From Sphaerisporangium sp. (lineage in GTDB: Bacteria; Actinomycetota; Actinomycetes; Streptosporangiales; Streptosporangiaceae): a stretch of 64,000 nt of DNA. Below the pieces are notes generated by a model, which worked only from the letters and a program-made list of their open reading frames with translations, ran no database searches and was not told the DNA's origin. The stretch covers positions 1 through 64,000 of the forward strand of contig JAOPYI010000074.1 of the NCBI GenBank assembly GCA_025964675.1, written 5' to 3'. Positions 8,854 through 33,844 of the stretch are shown here, piece after piece (positions within the stretch are counted from its first letter, which is position 1; every line of letters begins with the position of its first letter). A program made the position numbers and the translations under genes.

Positions 8854-11012
8854 GCGCCCAGCCGCCGCTCGCCGCTCGGAGCCGCGTCCCGCCGCTCGAT
8901 CCGTACGGCGCACACCTTGAACTCCGGCATCCGGGACACCGGATCCAGGGCGGGGTTGGTCAGGCGGTTGGCGCCCTCCCAGTGGAAGGGCATGAATACC
9001 GTGTCGTGGCGGATGGCGCGGCTGACCCTGGCGGCGGCCTCGGTGGATCCCCTGCGGCTGGTCACCGTCAGCATGTCGCCGGAGGTCACGTTGAGGCGTT
9101 CGGCGAGGTCGGGGGGGATCTCCAGGTACGTCTCGGGCGCGGCCTCGTTCAGCGCGGGGATCCGCCGGGTCTGCGCGCCGCTCTGGTAGTGCGCGAGGAC
9201 GCGGCCCGTGGTCAGGTAGTACGGGTAGTGGTCGTCGACCTCCTCTGCCACCGGCCGGTGGTCGACGGGCACCAACCTCGCCCGCCCGTCCGGCGTCGCG
9301 AAGCGGTCGAGGAACGGGCGCGGGGTGCCGGGATGGTCCTCCGACGGAGCGGGCCAGAACACGCCGGTCTCGGAGGCGATCCGCTCGTAGGTGATGCCGG
9401 AGTAGTCGGCGACGCCGCCCGCGCTCGCCCGGCGAAGCTCGTCGAACACCGTGCCGGGATCGGCCGAGAAGCCGTCCGCCAGGCCGAGCCGCGCGGCCAG
9501 CCCGGAAAGGATCGCCAGGTCGCTCCGCACCCCCGAGGGCGGAGCGACGGCCTGGCGGCGCAGCAGGACCCTTCCTTCCAGGTTGGTCATCGTGCCGTGC
9601 TCCTCCGCCCACTGGGTGGTGGGAAGCACGACGTCGGCCATCGCGGCGGTCTCCGACAGCACGAAGTCGGAGACCACGAGAAGGTCCAGCGCGGCGAGCC
9701 GCTCGGTCACGTGGCTCGATCGCGGGGCCGAGATCACCGGGTTGGAGCCGAACACCAGCAGGCCGCGCGGCCCGCCGGGGGTGCCGAGGGAGTCGAGCAG
9801 CTCGTAGGCCGAGCGCCCTGGCCCGGGAAGCGCGTCCGGATCGACGCCCCAGACCCCGGCGACGTGCGCGCGGGCGGCCGGGTCGTCGATCCTGCGGTAG
9901 CCGGGGAGCTGGTCGGCCTTCTGACCGTGCTCGCGTCCCCCCTGGCCGTTGCCCTGGCCGGTCACACAGCCGTAGCCGGAGCCCGCGCGTCCAGGCAGGC
10001 CGAGCGTGAGCGCCAGGTTGATGAACGCGGTCACCGTGTCGACGCCCTTGGAGTGCTGCTCCGCGCCCCGGCCGGTGAGGATCATGGCCGTGCGCGCGCT
10101 CCCGAGAAGGTGGACGGCCTCGCGCATCTGGGCGACGGGCACGCCGGTGACCCGCTCCGCGCGCTCGGGCCACCACGACGCGACCGATGCGCGCACCTCC
10201 TGGAAGCCGGTCGTGCGGGCGGCGATGTAGTCCTCGTCGGCGTACCCCTCGGTGATGGCGATGTGCAGCAGACCGAGCGCCAGGGCCAGGTCGGTGCCGG
10301 GCGTGACCCGAAGGTGCAGGGTGGCCTGCCTCGCCGTCCTGGTCTCCCTCGGATCGACGACGATCAGGGTGTTCCTCAGATGCCGCATGAACGGCGGCAT
10401 GGTGTCGGCGACGTTGCCCCCGACCATCATGACCGCGCCGGCCCCGGCCACGTCGGTGATCGGGAACGGCAGTCCCCGGTCCATGCCGAACGCGCGGTTC
10501 GACGCGGCGGCGGCCGAGGACATGCAGAACCGGCCGTTGTAGTCGATCTGGCTCGTGCGCAGCGCCACCCGGGCGAATTTGCCGAGCTGGTAGGCCTTCT
10601 CGTTGGTCAGGCCGCCGCCTCCGAACACGGCCACCGCGTCGTCGCCGTGCTCCGCCTGGATCTCGCGTACGGCTCCCGCGACGCGGTCGAGCGCGTCTTC
10701 CCAGCTCACGGGCGAAAGTGGGCTCGTGTGGCCGGCGCGGGCGAGCGGGGTGGTGAGGCGCGCGCCGCCGGTCAGCAGCTCACCCGCCGTCCAGCCCTTC
10801 TGGCAGAGCAGCCCCCCGGCGTTCGCCGGGATGTCGTGCCGCGGGGTGATGGTCAGCGTGCCGTCCGATATGTCCCCGTTGACGTACATGCCGCACTGCA
10901 ACGCGCAGTACGGGCAGTGCGTGGCCTCTCCCAGACGCGCCGGCGACATCACAGGCGCCTGCGGGAAAAGTGAGATCGGCATGGATCCGATGGTGCTTTC
11001 AGGCCGTTTCAC
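8850..11012 (-). CDS. nasA: Assimilatory nitrate reductase, molybdopterin catalytic subunit
   Basis: A 720-residue molybdopterin oxidoreductase of the NasA/NarB type, reducing nitrate to nitrite in the cytoplasm. The N-terminal [4Fe-4S] motif is CPYCALQCGMYV followed by LCQKGW (about residues 33-72). Then come typical bis-MGD segments: WEDALDRVAG, FGGGGLTNEKAY, YNGRFCMSSAAAA, GRGAEQHSKGVD, and the C-terminal molydopterin-dinucleotide domain (YYLTTGRVLAHYQSGAQTRR). No Tat signal is seen, consistent with a soluble assimilatory enzyme. GTG at 11012 follows AGGAGGG with eight-base spacing. It overlaps the NasB-like gene by GTGA. The mobA/moaA genes at 32-34 kb could serve cofactor synthesis. Confidence 0.92.
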   Translation of the reverse strand: MKRPESTIGSMPISLFPQAPVMSPARLGEATHCPYCALQCGMYVNGDISDGTLTITPRHDIPANAGGLLCQKGWTAGELLTGGARLTTPLARAGHTSPLSPVSWEDALDRVAGAVREIQAEHGDDAVAVFGGGGLTNEKAYQLGKFARVALRTSQIDYNGRFCMSSAAAASNRAFGMDRGLPFPITDVAGAGAVMMVGGNVADTMPPFMRHLRNTLIVVDPRETRTARQATLHLRVTPGTDLALALGLLHIAITEGYADEDYIAARTTGFQEVRASVASWWPERAERVTGVPVAQMREAVHLLGSARTAMILTGRGAEQHSKGVDTVTAFINLALTLGLPGRAGSGYGCVTGQGNGQGGREHGQKADQLPGYRRIDDPAARAHVAGVWGVDPDALPGPGRSAYELLDSLGTPGGPRGLLVFGSNPVISAPRSSHVTERLAALDLLVVSDFVLSETAAMADVVLPTTQWAEEHGTMTNLEGRVLLRRQAVAPPSGVRSDLAILSGLAARLGLADGFSADPGTVFDELRRASAGGVADYSGITYERIASETGVFWPAPSEDHPGTPRPFLDRFATPDGRARLVPVDHRPVAEEVDDHYPYYLTTGRVLAHYQSGAQTRRIPALNEAAPETYLEIPPDLAERLNVTSGDMLTVTSRRGSTEAAARVSRAIRHDTVFMPFHWEGANRLTNPALDPVSRMPEFKVCAVRIERRDAAPSGERRLGA

Positions 11013-31411: not shown

Positions 31412-31732
31412 GTGGACTTCGTGAAGGTATGGCACGGCCGCAGGGTCGTACATCAGGTCACCGACGCGAGGCCCTCGCTCACCGCCGACATCGGACGCCG
31501 CGAGAAGCGGTACTTCATCCAGATGGGGATCCGCACGCTGTGCCTCATCCTGGCCGTCGTCGTGAACGTACCCTGGCCGATCAGAGCGCTGTTCGTCGCC
31601 GGTGCGATCTTTTTGCCGTACGTTGCCGTCATCGGGGCGAACGAGCCGACCCGTGGCGCGAGCTCGACCTTTGACGCGGAATCACCTGACCAAACCGAGA
31701 TACCACTGCACCGACGCGAGATCGGGTCGTGA
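31412..31732 (+). CDS. DUF3099 family membrane protein
   Basis: A 106-residue DUF3099 protein. The family pattern is a short N-terminal stretch VVHQVTDARPSLTADIGRRE, then two hydrophobic segments (GIRTLCLILAVVVNVPWPIR and ALFVAGAIFLPYVAVIGAN), then a charged C-terminus. Function unknown. GTG at 31412 is accepted but an alternative GTG lies three codons downstream. The three-hairpin RNA at 31777 begins about 45 bases after its stop. Confidence 0.75.
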   Translation: MDFVKVWHGRRVVHQVTDARPSLTADIGRREKRYFIQMGIRTLCLILAVVVNVPWPIRALFVAGAIFLPYVAVIGANEPTRGASSTFDAESPDQTEIPLHRREIGS

Positions 31733-31776
31733 CAAAGTCTTGACGCACCCCATGGGTTGTAGGTGTACGCTTTAGA

Positions 31777-31886
31777 CAAGCGCTCTGGTCCCCCGTCGGA
31801 GCGCTTGGTGCCGGCGTTCCGGGCCCCCGTCGGAACGCCGATGAAGCGACGCCGGGTGGTTTGCCCCCGTAACCACCCGGCGTCGC
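31777..31886 (+). ncRNA. Three-hairpin RNA with C5-G-T loops, possibly 6C-like
   Basis: Three perfect hairpins stand in a row: 31777-31785 with 31799-31807 (9 bp); 31812-31820 with 31832-31840 (9 bp); 31846-31861 with 31871-31886 (16 bp). All three loops contain CCCCCGT. A run of C in the loops of adjacent stem-loops is the mark of the 6C RNA family of actinobacteria, though that family is described with at least six C and two hairpins. The last, strongest stem could be the terminator. A TTGACG at 31740-31745 and TACGCT at 31766-31771 could be a promoter, but are 20 bases apart. No coding ORF fits. The strand is chosen from this and from the C (not G) loops; the reverse strand would have G loops. 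Confidence 0.6.
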
Positions 31887-31930
31887 CCATCTCTCCATAA
31901 AACCAATCCGAATAGGCTATTTCGGATTAC

Positions 31931-32188
31931 TCAATGGTCGCCGAGCGTCTCCACCGTTGCCTGTCCCCAGTTGCGCGCCAGGGTCGTCAGCCGCTCCAGC
32001 GCCTCGGGCGACGCGGTGCCCGCCCCCTGCGCGAGACCGAGCAGGTACGCCGTGAGCGGCGCCGCCGGGCGGGCCACCCCGTGCGCGACGTCCCTGGTCA
32101 GGTCGAGAACCGCGTCGCGGTCCACCTTCTCCGGGTCGATGCCCAGCTCGTTGCAGACCAGCGCCGTCCACTCGGCCAGCACGTTCAT
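31931..32188 (-). CDS. DUF6457 family small protein
   Basis: An 85-residue protein starting MNVLAEWTALVCNELGIDPE and ending in a helix GQATVETLGDH. The pattern LDLTRDVAHGVARPAAPLTAYLLG fits DUF6457, a small helical protein next to molybdopterin genes in actinobacteria. It is downstream of mobA and on the same strand. The function is unknown; it may be a partner of MobA or a molybdenum-related protein. ATG at 32188 is chosen over longer readings that have no conserved sequence. Confidence 0.75.
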   Translation of the reverse strand: MNVLAEWTALVCNELGIDPEKVDRDAVLDLTRDVAHGVARPAAPLTAYLLGLAQGAGTASPEALERLTTLARNWGQATVETLGDH

Positions 32189-32854: not shown

Positions 32855-33844
32855 TCAGCCGCCGATGGCCGACATGGGGCGCGCCGGCTGCAGGAAGCTC
32901 GGATCGTCGATGCCGTGCCCGGCACGCTTGCCCCGCACGGCGGCGACCCACCGCCGCGCGAGCTCGTCATCGGAGGCCCCCGTGCGCATGGCCTCGCGCA
33001 GGTCGGACTCCTCGGTCGCGAACAGGCAGTTGCGGATCTGGCCGTCGGCGGTCAGCCGTACCCGGTCACAGGCACCGCAGAACGGCCGGGTCACCGAGCC
33101 GATGACGCCGACCCTCCCGGGACCGCCGTCCACGAGGAAGATCTCGGCGGGGGCGCTGCCCCGCTCCCCCGGGTCGTCGGGGACGAGCCCGAACTCGGGG
33201 GTCAGTATGGAGAGGATCTCGTCGGCGGTGACCATGTCCTCCCGGCGCCAGCCGTGCTGGGCGTCCAGTGGCATCTGCTCGATGAACCGCAGCTCATAGC
33301 CCTGTTCCAAGCAGAAGCGCAGCAGCCGTACCGCCTCGTGCTCGTTGACGCCCCGCATGAGGACCGCGTTGACCTTCACCGGGCGAAGGCCCGCGGCGTC
33401 TGCGGCGGCGAGGCCCGACAGGACGTCGGCGAGCCGGTCGCGGTGGGAGAGCTTGACGAAGGTCTCGCCGTCGAGGGTGTCGAGCGAGATGTTGACCCGG
33501 TCGAGGCCCGCGGCGGCCAAGGGCGCGGCGAGGCGGGCCAGCCCGATGCCGTTGGAGGTGATCGACACCTGCGGCCGGGGCCGCAGGGCCGCCGTCCGCG
33601 CGACGATCTCGACGACCTCGCGGCGGAGCAGGGGCTCCCCGCCGGTGTAGCGGACCTCGGTGATGCCGAGCCGCTCGACGGCGATCGCCACCAAGCGGGA
33701 GATCTCATCGGCGGTGAGCAAGGCGGGCTTTGGCAGCCAGTCGAGGCCCTCCGGCGGCATGCAGTAGGTGCAGCGAAGGTTGCACTTGTCCGTCAGCGAG
33801 ACCCTCAGGTCCGCCGCCACCCGCCCGAAGGAGTCAACGAGCAC
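32855..33844 (-). CDS. moaA: GTP 3',8-cyclase MoaA
   Basis: A 329-residue radical SAM enzyme, first step of molybdopterin synthesis. The radical SAM cluster CX3CX2C is visible as CNLRCTYC near residue 20-27; the C-terminal second [4Fe-4S] site as PFCGACDRVRLTADGQIRNC; and the final GG is present (MSAIGG). Segments VRYTGGEPLLRREVVEIVAR, SITSNGIGLARLA and DRVNISLDTLD are typical. GTG start at 33844. Other moa genes (moaC, moeA) are not in the window. It forms a three-gene group with mobA and DUF6457. Confidence 0.94.
   Translation of the reverse strand: MLVDSFGRVAADLRVSLTDKCNLRCTYCMPPEGLDWLPKPALLTADEISRLVAIAVERLGITEVRYTGGEPLLRREVVEIVARTAALRPRPQVSITSNGIGLARLAAPLAAAGLDRVNISLDTLDGETFVKLSHRDRLADVLSGLAAADAAGLRPVKVNAVLMRGVNEHEAVRLLRFCLEQGYELRFIEQMPLDAQHGWRREDMVTADEILSILTPEFGLVPDDPGERGSAPAEIFLVDGGPGRVGVIGSVTRPFCGACDRVRLTADGQIRNCLFATEESDLREAMRTGASDDELARRWVAAVRGKRAGHGIDDPSFLQPARPMSAIGG

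Follow-up and report, generated by a model that had tools for sequence, protein, structure and literature searches.

The 64,000-nucleotide stretch of DNA analysed here (the window), from the soil actinobacterium Sphaerisporangium sp., contains a row of three hairpins (31777-31886, plus strand) downstream of a gene for a DUF3099 protein and facing convergent genes for a DUF6457 protein and moaA, between which a MobA-like protein gene, also convergent, is listed (Pfam; Table 1). The most plausible reading of the hairpin region is a small-RNA gene in intergenic DNA. CCCCCGT occurs at 31790, 31824 and 31864, one copy in each of the three hairpin loops, which confirms the initial annotation on this point. 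That annotation also described three perfect stems of 9, 9 and 16 bp, which holds for the lengths and for stems 2 and 3, stem 1 having one U-G pair; the separation of 4-5 bases that it gave applies to the longer helices of a centroid-like fold (12, 11 and 16 pairs for hairpins 1, 2 and 3, with hairpin 1 extending outwards and gaps of 4 and 5 bases) and not to the inner 9-pair stems. The free energy of the fold is -78.2 kcal/mol compared with a shuffled mean of -53.0 kcal/mol, and 0 of 200 shuffles were as good. On the plus strand of the window, 4 of 54 CCCCCG sites lie within hairpins of at least 8 pairs, three of them at this locus and the fourth at 9530, and on the minus strand none of 44 sites does so.

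Table 1. Features at and around the putative small-RNA gene in the window (R1, covariance model of the three-hairpin form).
Feature	Position	Strand	Details
DUF3099 protein, same-strand gene upstream	31412-31732	+	Pfam PF11298, 81 bits; synteny
Promoter-like block	31740-31771	+	TTGACG 31740-31745; TGTACGCT 31764-31771; conserved upstream
Putative small RNA, ~115 nt	31777-31893	+	R1 match 31775-31893; fold z -6.6; ends inferred
Hairpin 1	31779-31805	+	loop GTCCCCCGT; inner stem 31779-31787/31797-31805, 9 pairs, one U-G
Hairpin 2	31813-31839	+	loop GGCCCCCGT; inner stem 31813-31821/31831-31839, 9 perfect pairs
Hairpin 3	31846-31886	+	loop TGCCCCCGT; stem 31846-31861/31871-31886, 16 perfect pairs; terminator-like
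DUF6457 protein, convergent neighbour	31931-32188	-	Pfam PF20058, 90.2 bits
moaA, convergent neighbour	32855-33844	-	Pfam Mob_synth_C and Radical_SAM; synteny

The promoter-like block is conserved across 61 aligned upstream regions of three-hairpin loci. TTGACG and TACGCT are separated by 20 bases, and a sigma-70 scan allowing 16-18 bases of spacing reported nothing for the block, which makes the -35 assignment uncertain; because of this unusual gap and the absence from the scan, the TTGAC part may instead represent an activator site. A -10-like element is located just 5' of the RNA in the three- and two-hairpin groups and, on visual inspection, in 17 of the 18 listed loci with one hairpin, the upstream set of one-hairpin loci used for alignment having been chosen by a script that demands a -10-like word.

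Additional sequence features were observed in these upstream regions. In the three-hairpin group, GAGATC..GTCGTnACT preceding TTGAC (31700-31745 in the window) is conserved beyond the basal promoter, which suggests a regulator site. Streptomycetaceae loci (L110-L189, e.g. L111, L113 and L129) share a conserved direct repeat close to GCTCAAGAAAAGCTCAGATCAAT, some tens of bases 5' of the -10-like element, which resembles the site of a regulator. The one-hairpin form (L117, L119, L134, L150, L171 and others, mostly Micromonosporaceae) has its own -10-like word, e.g. GTGTACGATT. Furthermore, the promoter spacers of L020, L021, L023, L116 and L118 contain a run of at least six G, in some cases as ACGGGGG, the complement of the loop. 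On the minus strand, a terminator-like hairpin at 31904-31929, just after the DUF6457 gene, probably marks the end of the convergent transcript.

Several other roles for the region were considered. A cis-regulatory leader or riboswitch was rejected, since no recognised gene is found on the same strand downstream of the RNA until 34204 and the adjacent DUF6457 gene is convergent. The promoter-like block and the existence of loci that have no DUF3099 hit speak against a 3' untranslated region of the DUF3099 gene. The RNA had no match among phage records, and its single match among plasmid records, NZ_LT559118.1, is an 11.85 Mb sequence of Nonomuraea gerenzanensis that looks like a chromosome, on the basis of which a mobile-element reading was also rejected. 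In this record, filed as a plasmid, the position of the RNA carries no listed feature.

Covariation and loop constancy

Compensatory changes, proposed by the initial annotation as a check, are abundant in related genomes. In alignment A1 (25 rows, with identical rows and the repeat loci L012 and L013 left out), 98.6% of cells are paired and both partners have changed in 14 of 34 pairs, compared with 4.0 on average after shuffling (0 of 500 shuffles); as the shuffles do not keep relatedness, this count and those given below for alignment A3 are not probabilities. A1 includes one truncated row (L026) and two rows of two-hairpin loci (L029 and L030), whose letters at the position of hairpin 1 are not a hairpin. 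Without these three, the 22 remaining rows are 100% paired and retain double changes in 10 of 34 pairs, with four each in hairpins 1 and 2 and two in hairpin 3. Hairpin 1 thus has double changes in 4 of its 9 pairs in the 22 full three-hairpin rows and in 5 of 9 in all 25 rows.

Alignment A3 (44 rows, 43 distinct) has 95.0% of cells paired, with 109 double-change cells compared with a shuffled mean of 28.6 and a covariation score of 0.399 compared with 0.211 in shuffles (0 of 500 in both cases), and pairing falls to 33-52% when the structure is slid along the alignment. Double changes occur in 9 of the 16 pairs of hairpin 3 and in 7 of the 9 pairs of hairpin 2, although its two outermost pairs are not formed in 19 and 18 of the 43 distinct rows. 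A3 flatters hairpin 2, since six loci in which this hairpin has no C loop (L076, L079, L086, L092, L097 and L102) were left out; it is also without L023, which fell outside the pattern of the script, and without L089, L098-L101 and others of the R1 loci, which were never proposed for it.

The loops are nearly constant. Across the 43 distinct rows of A3, the first four C of the hairpin-2 loop are present in 43, the fifth C in 40, and the G and the T in 42 each; the constancy of the hairpin-3 loop, both in A3 and in the named loci described below, follows in part from the patterns by which the loci were collected. All of the 30 best-scoring R1 loci, which belong to the family of the window and were not picked by loop, keep three CCCCCG loops. 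Among 40 other R1 loci, mostly diversity picks, CCCCCG is found in hairpin 3 of 37 and in the hairpin-2 stretch of at most 27, and in some distant lineages (L079, L086, L092 and L097) hairpin 2 has no C loop. One locus within the family of the window, L106, has CCCCG in two of its loops. With loop letters nearly fixed while the stems covary, selection on both structure and loops is supported at the sequence level. The initial annotation had proposed that the loops are selected for pairing with G-rich targets; the constant loops and covarying stems bear out the selection, and the pairing is treated below as a proposal. Covarying stems combined with constant C-rich loops, as found here, are what characterizes the C-rich-loop kind of trans-acting small RNA (sRNA).

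Two deviating loop arrangements were observed among the relatives. In L070 (1188-1277), the loop of hairpin 2 consists of seven C without GU, a 6C-like loop inside a family with CCCCCGU loops. L076 and L102, in which hairpin 2 has no C loop, contain ACGGGGG approximately 40-50 bases before the hairpin-3 loop, with which it could pair.

Distribution, architectures and gene neighbourhood

A DNA search identified the RNA in 27 of 41 near genomes, the genome of the window included; G020, a genome of the same family, gave no match in this search. With R1 (E up to 0.01), matches were obtained in 142 of 394 genomes of the class, a number that includes at least two probable false positives, L094 and L095, which have neither a C loop nor synteny. 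Among the R1 matches are 41 genomes of the same family, and none of this family occurs among the no-match genomes listed, outside which a further 232 no-match genomes fall. A two-hairpin covariance model (R2) matched 150 of the 394 genomes and, under strict filters, gave no match in the other 244. In a sample of 396 genomes from the phylum, of which the share outside the class is not given, R2 matched 13, all of them in the same class. Matches on the opposite strand were taken as echoes of the palindromes.

Architectures and synteny were counted in 80 loci listed from a scan of named genomes, out of at least 119 stretches. Among these, 18 loci have three hairpins, 44 have two and 18 have one, as judged by eye. 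Three-hairpin loci among those listed belong to Nonomuraea, Microbispora, Nocardiopsis, Rhizohabitans and metagenome-assembled genomes (MAGs), and two-hairpin loci to Streptomyces, Kitasatospora, Streptacidiphilus, Embleya, Nocardioides and others. Of the listed one-hairpin loci, 16 of 18 carry the names of genera that we take to be Micromonosporaceae, or of that family itself. A supposed additional occurrence of the one-hairpin form in genome family f21 proved wrong, as eight f21 genomes gave a two-hairpin locus only. Hairpin 3 is the one hairpin common to all three architectures, and hairpin 1 is present only in the three-hairpin group among the loci listed.

The gene neighbourhood is conserved together with the RNA. 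In 52 of the 62 listed named loci that have two or three hairpins, a DUF3099 gene on the strand of the RNA precedes it by no more than 700 bases, and moaA is convergent in 37 of the 39 for which over 2.5 kb of downstream sequence was available; the automated count of three-hairpin loci in this tally includes three two-hairpin loci (L114, L136 and L160) with an extra CCCCCG upstream. None of the 18 listed one-hairpin loci has a DUF3099 hit, and one of them, L165 from a Frankiaceae MAG, has a convergent moaA. Nocardiopsis loci also keep the RNA without a DUF3099 hit. In four Micromonosporaceae loci examined, the one-hairpin form adjoins a gene for a MoxR-type ATPase, as read from its translation, with a fabG relative within approximately 4.2 kb in three of the four. 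The MoxR/fabG surroundings suggest that the one-hairpin form in Micromonosporaceae may occupy the same chromosomal area after rearrangement.

The position of the hairpins between convergent DUF3099 and DUF6457/moaA genes would also suit an array of transcription terminators rather than a regulatory RNA, and T-rich sequence is found 3' of hairpin 3 in many relatives (GCCTTTTT and GCTTTTTT), the tail in the window being weaker (CCCATCTCT). However, hairpins 1 and 2 are not followed by T tails, and the loops of terminators need no fixed letters, whereas CCCCCG occupies all three hairpins in the 30 same-family loci described above. An ordinary terminator array is further disfavoured by the promoter-like block kept just upstream, and by the retention of the RNA both in those Nocardiopsis loci that have no DUF3099 hit and beside the MoxR-type gene in Micromonosporaceae. 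We consider it very unlikely.

Relation to 6C RNA and other C-rich-loop RNAs

The initial annotation raised two options, a variant 6C RNA (RF01066) with a third hairpin or a new family, and named the Rfam 6C model as a check. In 31600-32000 this model, which has a cut-off of 47 bits, found nothing at E values of up to 10, and no Rfam family reached its cut-off in the window; likewise, no family, 6C included, was found at cut-off in 28 distinct loci of relatives. The genome encodes its own 6C gene elsewhere (G000:C178:27430-27506, 63.2 bits), and in 24 of the 27 near genomes with the CCCCCGU RNA a 6C match is present as well, in 23 of them above the cut-off. Conversely, R2 scores the own 6C gene at 24.8 bits, no better than unrelated stretches at 26.3 and 27.4 bits. 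6C RNA is defined by two hairpins with at least six C each (PMC8388888); the window has three hairpins, with five C followed by GU in each loop. A 6C variant would account for the shared general design, with stable C-rich-loop hairpins in actinobacteria of which the last is terminator-like, but the missing 6C match, the coexistence of both RNAs in one genome, the different loops and the R2 scores make it highly improbable. The new-family option gains from the same Rfam searches and from the abundant compensatory changes. At the Rfam threshold the CCCCCGU RNA and 6C RNA are separate; the two may have a deep shared ancestor.

The closest likeness is to B11, which we take to be the mycobacterial name of 6C RNA. 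Both RNAs are actinobacterial, with compact hairpins bearing C-rich loops and a terminator-like last hairpin, but the CCCCCGU RNA is located at another locus, gives no match to the 6C model and contains one to three hairpins with CCCCCGU loops. Two further Rfam families, ar7 (RF02342) and terC (RF03067), show a short likeness in C-rich or hairpin sequence at 20.5 and 20.8 bits. These scores fall well short of the respective cut-offs (60 and 39.9 bits) and are at chance level.

In Streptomyces coelicolor, moaA corresponds to SCO1821 (PMC4021200), and the listings and passages of the open literature searched mention no sRNA at moaA/SCO1821. A Streptomyces orthologue may already be listed as a transcript in a supplementary table (e.g. 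Table S3 of PMC3765725). The main text of that study describes 90 S. coelicolor sRNAs identified by RNA-seq, with northern blots of scr5583 and scr1434 (PMC3765725). These two resemble the CCCCCGU RNA as conserved Streptomyces sRNAs with C-rich loops seen on northern blots (PMC3765725), but they are named after their right-hand genes SCO5583 and SCO1434, whereas the neighbour of the CCCCCGU RNA is moaA (SCO1821); the distinction is drawn from the neighbour genes.

Taken as a whole, the locus appears to belong to a conserved small-RNA family of the known C-rich-loop kind, separate from 6C, without a match to Rfam 15 in the scanned loci and with one to three identical loops.

Putative targets and mode of action

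We consider it probable that the window encodes a stand-alone, trans-acting small regulatory RNA of approximately 115 nt with loops that pair with G-rich mRNA. It would belong to an actinobacterial family that has no match in Rfam 15, of which the window carries the form with three hairpins. Transcription would begin at a dedicated promoter immediately before hairpin 1 and end at hairpin 3. The weak T-tail in the window, the lack of an R2 match in more than half of the class sample and the hairpin 2 without a C loop in some lineages count against this reading. The stems would function as scaffolds presenting one to three copies of identical single-stranded CCCCCGU, and the loops would most likely pair with G-rich stretches (core GGGG or GGGGG, best fit ACGGGGG) near ribosome-binding sites. 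The C-rich loop of the terminator hairpin of B11 pairs with G tracts near ribosome-binding sites (PMC12395582). As the part common to all architectures of the CCCCCGU RNA is likewise a terminator-like C-loop hairpin, we infer by analogy a similar way of working, in which pairing would lower the translation or stability of several mRNAs, as reported for B11 (PMC12395582).

The initial annotation had also suggested a search for ACGGGGG near ribosome-binding sites. Among 446 crude gene starts in 0.74 Mb (roughly a tenth of the genome), 3 have this word in the preceding 25 bases, which amounts to 21.7 per thousand genomic sites compared with 12.8-16.5 for three other NCGGGGG control words, a result not clearly above these controls; three sites are too few to count as enrichment or to exclude a small set of targets. 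Around the assumed starts of seven local genes, neither CGGGG nor GGGGG is present. Both tests are weak.

This lack of clear enrichment of ACGGGGG at gene starts would also fit a protein-binding RNA, with the recurring CCCCCGU loops serving to recruit or titrate an RNA-binding protein rather than to pair with mRNA. Sponge RNAs show the same pattern, with one to three identical loops in each molecule, and the constancy of the loops reaches to the GU after the C run. However, the closest tested analogue, B11, functions by base pairing (PMC12395582), and we regard protein binding as unlikely, though less so than a terminator array or a 6C variant.

For the trans-acting, base-pairing sRNA preferred here, a broader proposition is evenly balanced: in parallel with 6C, Actinomycetes may possess in this family a second widespread C-loop sRNA, with a modular 'multi-finger' design in which lineages gain or lose whole hairpins, each finger retains CCCCCGU and the dose of identical binding loops per molecule evolves. 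As it matches nothing in Rfam 15, this putative sRNA, located at one locus in Streptomyces, Nonomuraea, Nocardiopsis, Nocardioides and their relatives, is missed by annotation that relies on Rfam. Its separateness from 6C suggests that C-rich-loop regulation in GC-rich actinobacterial genomes rests on more than one RNA family. Furthermore, the natural series of one-, two- and three-loop forms could be used to test, in antibiotic producers, whether repetition of a seed loop alters the range or strength of targeting.
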